Assembly (NCBI GenBank): GCA_947469485.1
Contig: CANIPU010000025.1
Span: forward strand, 1 to 35,426
Length of the DNA: 35,426 nucleotides
Origin: Chitinophagaceae bacterium
GTDB lineage: Bacteria > Bacteroidota > Bacteroidia > Chitinophagales > UBA10324
Direction of reading: 5' to 3'
In this document: positions 28,525-30,075 of the stretch, piece after piece
Layout of the letters: each line of letters begins with the position of its first letter
Numbering within the stretch: position 1 is the first letter of the stretch
Program-made: the position numbers and the translations under genes
Notes under the pieces: model-generated
The model's database searches: none
Seen by the model: the letters and a program-made list of their open reading frames with translations, nothing else
Told to the model about the DNA's origin: nothing

Positions 28525-28539
28525 CACATTAGTGAAAAA

Positions 28540-28598
28540 CTAATAGTGAATAGTGAACAATTTATTTAGCTATAACTGTATTCACTTTTCACTATTAA
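28540..28598. repeat. Heptamer-repeat hairpin (first heptamer cluster)
   Basis: Left arm 28540-28559 and right arm 28577-28598 pair over 18 of 19 positions with a 2-base bulge and a 17-base loop. The right arm belongs to a run of heptamers continuing to 28617 (CTTTTCA, CTATTAA twice, CTATTCA, CTCACTC); the left arm is the same heptamer type in reverse orientation. The stop codon (TGA, minus strand) of the gene at 28614-29492 lies inside the run. The hairpin could act as a transcript end for that gene. Confidence 0.75.
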
Positions 28599-28613
28599 CT
28601 ATTAACTATTCAC

Positions 28614-29492
28614 TCACTCTTTCACCACTTTCTTCACCATGCTGCCTTTATCGGTTACTACCTCCACGAAGTAGATACCGGTAGCAAATGATTTCATATT
28701 GATGATTTGAGATTGCTGATATATGGCAGCAGTATAAACAACCTCGGCAAGAGTATTGGTGAGTGTGATGGTGCCCTTGCTTACCGGAGTATTGAATTGG
28801 ATGGTTATGAAATCGGTTGTGAAATTAATAAGAGCAATTTTTTCACTACTAATATCAGTTGTATTTAAAAATTGTGTTACCCCAGCAGGAATTGGACTAT
28901 TGGGTTGTGAATGGTAAGCGTATTCTTTAAATTTTAAAAAAGACCTGTTTCCCTGTCTTCCAATTTCAAGTCTTATCCAGCCATAGTATTTATTTCCCGA
29001 AACATCTAATTGAACTCCCAAATAAGAATCTTGGCTATCCAACCATAAACCACTTGCCCCGTAAATATTAGGAAGTCCCCAATTATGAAGAAAATGACTG
29101 TATGAAAGCACTCCAGAAATTTGAAAGTTACCTGAATTATTAATTAGCTCACCATAGGAAAGTGGAACAGGTAAAGTATCATTATTAACAGGGCATAATA
29201 TTTTATTTACACCAACTGGAACCACTTCATTAAGGTTTAATTTATAATCGAACCAATCCCCATAAGCTCCGCTTGTAGTATGTTCATGATGATTTACCTG
29301 ATGAAAATTAAAGTCATCAATCCCATCATTATTTAAATCTATATAATGATTTGAATCTCCCCAATTCATTAATTGAGAGTCAGGATTTACATCCGTATAA
29401 ATAATCTGCGCACTTGCAATATTTGGATGAGCTAAGACCGAACCTGCGAGGGCTGTATATCCTGCAATTTTTTTCTTCAGCGAGTCAGTCAT
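28614..29492 (-). CDS. T9SS sorting-domain surface protein
   Basis: A 292-residue protein. Residues 1-29 resemble an export signal of unusual, less hydrophobic type (MTDSLKKKIAGYTALAGSV, then AHPNIASAQ), followed by a region with an acidic calcium-binding-like stretch (DLNNDGIDDFNF) and a segment that may be a carbohydrate- or surface-binding beta domain (YLGVQLDVSGNKYYGWIRLEIG). The last 75 residues are a Por-secretion-tail (INFTTDFITIQFN, GTITLTNTLAEVVYTA, FATGIYFVEVVTDKGS, KKVVKE). It should be exported through Sec and then T9SS to the surface. The mature domain occurs in proteins annotated as T9SS surface proteins of unknown function. It is flanked on both sides by heptamer repeats. Confidence 0.82.
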   Translation of the reverse strand: MTDSLKKKIAGYTALAGSVLAHPNIASAQIIYTDVNPDSQLMNWGDSNHYIDLNNDGIDDFNFHQVNHHEHTTSGAYGDWFDYKLNLNEVVPVGVNKILCPVNNDTLPVPLSYGELINNSGNFQISGVLSYSHFLHNWGLPNIYGASGLWLDSQDSYLGVQLDVSGNKYYGWIRLEIGRQGNRSFLKFKEYAYHSQPNSPIPAGVTQFLNTTDISSEKIALINFTTDFITIQFNTPVSKGTITLTNTLAEVVYTAAIYQQSQIINMKSFATGIYFVEVVTDKGSMVKKVVKE

Positions 29493-29543
29493 ATAACCAC
29501 CATTTGAATTCGGAGTTTAAAGTTAACTTATTTTATTACTTCA

Positions 29544-29669
29544 CTCTTAACTGTTCACTTTTAACTATTCACTTTTCATTAAACTGTATTCACTCTTAAC
29601 TACTCACTCTTAACTACTCACTCTTAACTACTCACTCTTAACTATTCACTTTTCACTAAACTGTATTCA
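29544..29669 (+). repeat. Heptamer-phased tandem repeat array (18 x 7 bases)
   Basis: The array reads as units of 14, 14, 21, 14, 14, 14, 14 and 21 bases, all multiples of seven. The four central units (29593-29648) are CTCTTAACTACTCA three times, then once with one change. The 21-base units at 29572-29592 and 29649-29669 differ by a single base and contain AAACTGTATTCA, a sequence that also occurs (as AACTGTATTCA) at 28574-28584 in the first cluster. The heptamers fit CTNYTMA. The array lies between the T9SS gene and the HTH gene and ends just before the stop of the latter. Confidence 0.85.
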
Positions 29670-29673
29670 GTTT

Positions 29674-30042
29674 CTACTTCCCCGCCACCACTTCCTTCAG
29701 CCAGTCTCTTTCCTTTATCACATCAATTAATTGTTTTTCCATTTCATCTATCTGTTGCAGTAACTGTTTCTCGGCTTTGGTGGTGCGAATGTTTTCGGGC
29801 AGCAACTGAAAATAATTTTCGAGCAGGTTGGTTTGCAGGTGTATGCTAAGGGCTATGAGCAAACTGATGTGGTGGTCTTTGCGCCTGAGTGCCCGACTCA
29901 AAAAACTTCCATCGTTTCCCATTATTTGCGACAGGTGATGTACTGTGGTTTCATTGCGCTGCGCAAGCATTTTTACTACCAATGGTAAATTAATGCGCCG
30001 CGCCTGTTCGGCTATGTGTTTTTTAGTTAGTGCGCCCTTCAT
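29674..30042 (-). CDS. Small HTH-like protein with C-terminal coiled coil
   Basis: A 122-residue protein. Residues about 14-80 form a helical domain resembling an XRE-type helix-turn-helix (LPLVVKMLAQRNETTVHHLS, QIMGNDGSFLSRALRRKDHH, ISLLIALSIHLQTN), and residues 85-118 a heptad-patterned coiled coil (AEKQLLQQIDEMEKQLIDVI). It may bind DNA as a dimer through the coiled coil; this is inference. The start is ATG 30042; an in-frame TTG at 30075 would add eleven mostly polar residues and is less likely. The gene ends four bases from the heptamer array. No target is known. Confidence 0.7.
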   Translation of the reverse strand: MKGALTKKHIAEQARRINLPLVVKMLAQRNETTVHHLSQIMGNDGSFLSRALRRKDHHISLLIALSIHLQTNLLENYFQLLPENIRTTKAEKQLLQQIDEMEKQLIDVIKERDWLKEVVAGK

Positions 30043-30075
30043 TTGTTTTTTCTTTTGGTTGAAATTTATTTTCAA

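Follow-up and report, generated by a model that had tools for sequence, protein, structure and literature searches.

What kind of sequence is a long array of tandem heptamers that begins directly behind a stop codon, and from what did it arise? The question is raised by a contig of a Chitinophagaceae bacterium (CANIPU010000025.1, contig C25 of its genome), whose full length of 35,426 nucleotides is referred to here as the window. The answer argued below is that the array is probably one arm of an IVS-type hairpin element, i.e., of a unit in which arms of tandem heptads bracket a gene of the PF05635 ("S23") family, the protein family of 23S rRNA intervening sequences (IVS).

The arrays in the window

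An initial sequence-only reading had described a seven-base-phased array of 126 bases, or 18 units, next to a T9SS gene. The phased array is real, and its extent has to be corrected: counting along the minus strand, with the stop codon of a neighboring ORF as the starting point, gives 19 consecutive units on a single seven-base grid (Table 1). Fifteen of these units conform to NAGTKAR (CTNYTMA on the plus strand), the misfits being AACTGAA, TAATGAA and, twice, TACAGTT. TRF placed the array (29540-29658, period 14, score 126) at the top of its 20 rows for the window, and a 21-mer of three consecutive CTNYTMA words, which appeared in none of 100 dinucleotide shuffles of the window, occurs 12 times within it, ten times in the main array and twice in a second one (28585-28612). 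Two 21-mers differing at one base had raised the suspicion that a larger block was duplicated, and these blocks do lie exactly 11 units (77 nt) apart. The adjacency to a T9SS gene is likewise correct, but it looks incidental, the anchor of the array being the stop codon of the neighbor on the opposite side.

That neighbor has an 84%-identical paralogue on another contig of the same genome (C1:54345-54743), and the stop codon of this paralogue is followed by eight units on the same grid, the last of which (CAGTGGA) is imperfect. The excess of the window array over its counterpart is thus 11 units, equal to the spacing of the internal duplication. A decayed third paralogue is found at C14:22276-22470 with a paralogue of the T9SS-domain gene beside it; no array was seen by eye between the two genes at this diverged locus. 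The ORF itself has no Pfam match, and its sole NCBIfam match, to Cas5p, seems spurious (E 1e-4, 21.9 bits where the cut-off is 100). Six nearby matches to RNA families comprise two tRNAs and four hits under their gathering scores, and a known RNA family was therefore rejected as an account of the array.

Folded by itself, the main array does not yield a stable hairpin (z -0.32; 79 of 200 shuffles folded as well), and neither an S23 gene nor a convincing second arm was found beside it. The second array of the window is of a different build, in that its two arms face each other in opposite orientations, and the fold of 28525-28625 reaches -28.3 kcal/mol (z -4.98), a value that none of 200 shuffles equaled. 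This suggests that 28529-28618 is a hairpin element without a gene. Both arrays sit between protein ORFs and not in 16S or 23S genes, and the 23S gene of this genome is free of inserts over the matched model positions 855-2912.

Table 1. Positions in the window of the heptad arrays, their parts and the genes that adjoin them.
Feature	Position	Strand	Remarks
AGT-type arm of gene-less hairpin element	28529..28560	+	Partner of the ACT-type arm
ACT-type arm of the same hairpin	28577..28618	-	Overlaps stop codon of T9SS-domain gene; inverted partner 16/18
292-aa protein with T9SS C-terminal sorting domain (PF18962)	28614..29492	-	Sits between the two arrays
GGAGTTTAAAGTTAAC	29512..29527	+	May be what is left (two heptads) of the opposite arm, judged from sequence only
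Main heptad array	29540..29672	-	Begins directly after stop codon of the ORF at 29674..30075; read as solo arm
21-mer block, copy marking internal 77-nt duplication	29568..29588	-	Units 13-15 of grid
21-mer block, other copy, 11 units off	29645..29665	-	Units 2-4 of grid; one base changed
133-aa ORF	29674..30075	-	Stop codon anchors array; 84% paralogue and decayed paralogue elsewhere in genome

S23 genes, their heptad arms and their insertion sites

Since PF05635 is the IVS protein family, its genes were inspected irrespective of arrays. The genome has four PF05635 matches, on contigs C1, C4 and C10, and none on the window contig C25. The gene on C4 (199913-200212), whose product also matches TIGR02436, is flanked by the heptamers of the window, on the minus strand at 199824-199847 and on the plus strand at 200239-200276, and thus has two inverted arms. 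The gene on C1, for whose protein the closest solved structure is 2GSC (XCC0516; E 1.2e-15), has complementary arms built of 10-11-nt rather than 7-nt units, and the two genes on C10 show no ACT-type match beside them by pattern matching.

Several arrays share an inverted-pair layout, 5'-(AGTNNNN)n ... (NNNNACT)n-3'. Fifty of the 60 genomes of the order have PF05635, and at least seven of its loci, including the C4 gene, have ACT-type arrays close by, six of them at a distance of no more than about 150 bp; all ten arms lie in the predicted orientation, as judged by eye among the matches listed. Arrays occur on both sides at G005:C3 and G017:C27, on one side within about 150 bp at G017:C14, G009:C501 and G033:C4, and 229 bp away at G008:C4, this comparison being one that reveals ACT-flavor arms only. 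At the level of genomes, 25 of the 32 that have PF05635 contain arrays of a five-word ACT pattern, compared with none of the eight that lack it (Fisher p 8.4e-5), and the narrower CTNYTMA pattern gives 24/50 versus 1/10 (Fisher p 0.035), both p values ignoring shared ancestry and completeness.

The association was also evaluated on plasmids, where 27 records with S23 genes were found by protein. Nineteen loci were taken with up to 3 kb per side, and eight records were left out as apparent duplicates (H3, H17, H18, H20, H21) or partial matches (H24, H26, H27); L447 and L449, which represent one insertion, are both counted. The flanks of 61 further genes located on these stretches served as controls, genes less than 270 bp from the S23 gene or too near the stretch end being dropped. 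A seven-base period (lag 7, at least 16 of 21 matches in a flank) was detected at 14/19 S23 loci versus 13/61 controls, and lag 8 at 5/19 versus 1/61, with either lag at 17 of the 19. Heptads near ordinary plasmid genes are thus not rare, and it is the contrast, not their mere presence, that counts as evidence. Inverted alignment of the two flanks (score of at least 18) distinguishes the sets as well (9/19 versus 2/61), as does RNA folding with at least 15 pairs between flanks, seen at 16/19 loci versus 22/114 control windows, and at 21/24 after the addition of five loci, three of which had been located through their arrays. Arms are absent at L446 and L282, and are direct rather than inverted at L445 and L461. 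Arm sequences appear arbitrary, elements at different places being often unrelated in them.

In viruses, a scan with a single protein gave nothing, an alignment of ten sequences was too diverse, and an alignment of two sequences led to four loci. At all four, identified by protein alone, the flanks form 34-58 pairs, and three show plain heptads by eye. Among 50,697 phage records, four hold a relative, annotated in three cases as accessory variability determinant. The S23 gene points in the same direction as its neighbors at 12 of the 15 plasmid loci with co-directional annotated neighbors and in the opposite direction at three (L447 and L449 again being one insertion). On cyanobacterial plasmids, S23 genes are found within CRISPR-Cas operons (L445, L450, L456), twice in the cas6/cas4 interval with unrelated arms and once between cas10 and a Cmr3-family gene.

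Comparison of occupied with empty sites shows that gene and arms form one insertable unit. At a first site, in a tra operon, the flanks of the Trichormus element (L447) match the empty site of Nostoc linckia NIES-25 (L465) at 97-99%, and the insertion point is the stop codon of the upstream gene. The Scytonema copy (L449) has a left arm 14 nt shorter than that of L447, a decayed copy in Nostoc C052 (L464) consists of a left arm and a truncated gene, and in Brasilonema (L471; flanks 80-82%) the site holds a gene-less hairpin. A second site follows a gene with a TraM domain. Here L454 and L467 (92%) both have the element, their right arms containing six versus five copies of GTTCCCT, a difference of 7 nt; L468 and L470 are empty (93-96%), and L469 has a gene-less form. 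At a third, in Azospirillum lipoferum 4B, the element lies inside the 23S rRNA gene on one replicon (L451) and is absent on another (L466), with flanks that are 100% identical. The array is missing from each of the empty sites (L465, L468, L470, L466). Furthermore, the only long homology among L447, L452 and L455 is the element of about 416 bp, the remaining matches being further arm copies, some of them gene-less pairs; L452 and L455 have gene-less copies in which the arms are the same and the interiors differ. A general target-site duplication was considered and rejected: TAAT/TAATT is seen at the first site and TAATTA/TAATTA beside its gene-less copy, and the TraM site, which has about 40 bp of additional difference, shows none.

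There is good support for the view that tandem heptad arms commonly bracket those S23 genes that lie outside rRNA, and that these arms are gained and lost with the gene and change in length by heptads. That the whole is an insertable unit is shown by the empty sites in close relatives, the gene-less hairpins at occupied sites and the arm differences of 7 and 14 nt, mobility being read here from presence and absence. The earlier proposal that lengths shift by whole heptads is supported by these 14-nt and 7-nt steps in related plasmid elements, by the 19 versus 8 units (the last imperfect) behind paralogous genes and, in the available text on Coxiella, by three versus two heptamers among strains (PMC4990558).

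A full element would consist of a left arm of tandem heptads, an S23/four-helix-bundle gene (PF05635) of about 120 codons and a right arm that is, in most copies, the reverse complement of the left, and the arms would close its transcript into a long stem. Insertion behind stop codons or between operon genes would be tolerated since it places the hairpin where no reading frame is affected, and the hairpin may be cut from the mRNA as it is from rRNA. The arms would lengthen and shorten through strand slippage of whole heptads. On this basis, the window array may be the arm that remained after the rest of an element was lost and that then underwent its own 77-nt expansion. Its interpretation as a solo arm draws on the shared heptamers, their orientation, the anchoring to a stop codon and the finding of a decayed copy with a single arm. 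Three puzzles, i.e., the origin of heptamer repeats in Bacteroidota and Cyanobacteria, the role of S23/four-helix-bundle proteins and the spread of IVS beyond rRNA, would become one testable question. Since elements are found in operons such as cas and tra, and gene-less ones even in frame within a protein, they are relevant to annotation and to the RNA processing of operons.

Heptad arrays at large and competing explanations

The sequence-only reading had called for a search for further copies, the lack of which would have counted against it, and copies were found: the genome (3.08 Mb, 45 contigs) contains 32 matches to a three-heptad pattern, and 25 of 60 genomes of the order, this one included, have matches, the other 35 having none. 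Six genomes were sampled over 0.26-0.84 Mb each, the five relatives being chosen from genomes with matches and not randomly. Irrespective of sequence, seven was the leading spacing of tandem words in five of the six. When loci were counted at which a 4-mer occurs four times at regular intervals of 7, the numbers were 14 (five of which, in the genome studied here, include the word AAAA), 5, 18, 11 and 13, the last tying with spacing 21, and G008 had none. The units include AGTTYAA, AATTGAT, GCAATNR and GTCATCN among others, and G059 also shows period 8.

These observations are what would be expected of a plain heptanucleotide satellite, generated and homogenized by polymerase slippage with a preferred 7-nt step wherever it is tolerated and involving no mobile element. 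This is the main rival of the hairpin-arm interpretation, and it keeps a real, if minor, chance of being correct. The internal 77-nt duplication and the 8 versus 19 units on the same grid, which represent whole-unit length change, are in line with it, and a 2007 survey is credited, in the parts available of two later papers, with the abundance of heptanucleotides and with the polymerase idea (PMC4679880, PMC4692102). The satellite leaves unexplained, however, why arrays have inverted partners. Among 51 period-7 arrays of the six genomes, nine are accompanied within 160 bp by an inverted partner that matches at 15 or more of 18 positions. These nine occupy seven places, and the number expected, taken from the vicinity of random gene ends, is 0.34; three arrays have direct partners, somewhat above the 0.67 expected by chance. 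Arrays failing low-complexity filters were excluded from the array statistics, and those less than 250 bp from a stretch end from the partner count as well. Likewise unexplained by a satellite are the bracketing of PF05635 genes, the arrival of arms together with the insert and the arms common to S23 and gene-less copies. Since nine of 51 arrays have an inverted partner, most arrays must be either solo or of other origin.

The initial reading had also envisaged a protein or RNA that reads the heptamer. Such a sequence-specific reader seems unlikely, judging from the sequences, because those of the arms differ greatly between loci. An array of binding sites for a heptad-reading protein or an RNA-binding regulator, selected behind stop codons, would agree with the constancy of certain positions while N, Y and M vary, a constancy that the search pattern itself imposes in part. 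It also has precedents in the available text on other systems, i.e., the repeat-binding translational regulator that MacGregor proposed for TAACTGA (PMC4679880) and the arrays of octamers and heptamers in Geobacter metallireducens, which were annotated as sites of global regulators (PMC2700814). Nevertheless, units are highly variable both among genomes and inside single ones, the pattern is without a match in 35 of the 60 genomes of the order, and of the three paralogous loci two have 19 and 8 units behind the stop codon and the third none, which together make selected binding sites very unlikely.

Another possibility is that S23 genes insert into pre-existing heptad arrays, which would then be the target and not part of the element. 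The often unrelated arm sequences at different places and the heptads beside other plasmid genes (13/61) could be accommodated in this way. The arrays are absent from the empty sites L465, L468, L470 and L466, which contradicts the proposal at the three sites examined, and L447, L452 and L455 share arms and gene in unrelated surroundings; arrays as targets are thus highly improbable. Scarcely credible is a function as backup stop codons, based on the true observations that each AGTKARN heptad contains one, that a 7-nt period covers all three frames and that intergenic arrays lie beside a stop codon in 16/42 cases versus 8.5 expected, given that permuting unit columns does nearly as well (28/39 arrays observed, 23.1 expected; for period 8, 6/15 versus 3.5) and that start codons are enriched too (10/42 versus 6.2). 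For the same reason, all-frame stops were rejected as the cause of the period, column permutation accounting for most of the effect.

Heptads were also encountered in other settings. A strong GC-rich hairpin lies between two arrays at a convergent region (L244), and the arrays are probably not the terminator there. Three related viral contigs differ at the same gene position, two having in-frame hairpins of two different heptamers and the third having neither; two pairs of viral contigs are 100% identical and hence show no difference in array length. The viral contigs L302, L332 and L308 carry several heptad hairpins per few kb, gene ends included. In G035, ACTTGATACTTGATACTCACTACTTGATACT recurs little changed at at least 20 or so places (about 20 among the matches listed), a dispersed heptad element of nearly fixed sequence. 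AGTTYAA heptads are found near the ends of genes with a T9SS-like C-terminal domain (L053:13255-13296, L053:18213-18241, L071:16288-16318); in the first and third they are in frame and give peptides such as LKFKVQSS and FKFKVQ, and at L053:18213-18241 the open frame differs before and after the array, as a 7-nt change would cause. The heptads of a leucyl-tRNA synthetase gene (L062:6056-6089) code in frame for KFQISDSKFQI, and a CTYTTCA array (L070:15060-15100) seems, judged by eye, to code for the lipobox and the hydrophobic part of the signal peptide of a lipoprotein.

Comparison with known systems

Short tandemly repeated repetitive (STRR) sequences are degenerate heptamers described in cyanobacteria, and we know of no element structure for them. 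The sequence-only reading had likened the array to these repeats, and rightly so in kind: both are tandem heptamers in intergenic DNA, and among the 80 listed loci of named genomes with a six-heptad CTNYTMA pattern, sorted by title, 25 are from Cyanobacteria, 28 from Bacteroidota and 27 from others. Unlike STRR, the window array belongs to a member of the Bacteroidota, of which we take the T9SS sorting domain PF18962 as an indication; its relatives have many PF18962 matches.

The accompanying statement that no family had been described in the Bacteroidota does not hold, as TAACTGA heptamers have been reported in Beggiatoaceae, Cyanobacteria and five Bacteroidetes (MacGregor, 2015; PMC4679880, available in part). 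Similar to the arrays studied here, these are intergenic and tandem, are patchily distributed over the same phyla and have other heptamers beside them in some intergenic regions. In contrast, they lie mostly just upstream of start codons in BOGUAY, the available text links them to no S23 gene, and their unit differs from the CTNYTMA of the window, in which CTGATAA would require an A at the fourth place. In G. metallireducens, the available text describes classes of four tandem octamers or five tandem heptamers that are "mostly found in pairs" and drawn switching strands, and a further family of 49 elements of four heptamers each between and within genes (PMC2700814). They are paired like the arms described here, and that study takes them for binding sites of regulators or for RNA elements with a regulatory function. 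Heptamers have also been noted as an over-represented class (PMC4692102) and as a source of satellites (PMC6749651), both sources being available in part. The available parts of PMC5041132, PMC5524665 and PMC2672173 contain nothing bearing on a link between S23 and heptads, and in the open literature on S23/IVS and on heptamer repeats, subscription journals being mostly outside this scope, no paper was found that links non-rRNA S23 genes with heptad arms.

The S23 protein encoded on C1 matches the model of the DGR accessory protein Avd (NF033474; E 1.7e-8, 34.7 bits, under the cut-off of 80). A broader idea, offered as a long shot, is that heptad-armed S23 hairpins constitute a separate and very widespread class of RNA-level mobile elements, of which the rRNA IVS occupy one niche. 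An Avd-like S23 protein would package or guide the RNase III-cut hairpin RNA and help write it back into DNA, leaving the 7-nt arm step as its footprint, and STRR, TAACTGA repeats and supposed regulator sites would be solo arms and gene-less passengers.

The hairpin-arm interpretation itself has its model in the 23S IVS of Coxiella burnetii, which, according to the available text, contains an S23p ORF, has complementary ends, is cleaved in its stem by RNase III so that the insert is lost from the RNA, and carries tandem GACAGAT heptamers just ahead of the ORF, whose number, three or two, varies among strains (PMC4990558). The elements described here share with it the protein family, the complementary termini that form a stem, the tandem heptamers upstream of the ORF and the sporadic presence. 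They differ from it in location, most lying between protein genes, some of them behind stop codons and some lacking the ORF, with L451 as the one example in a 23S rRNA gene.
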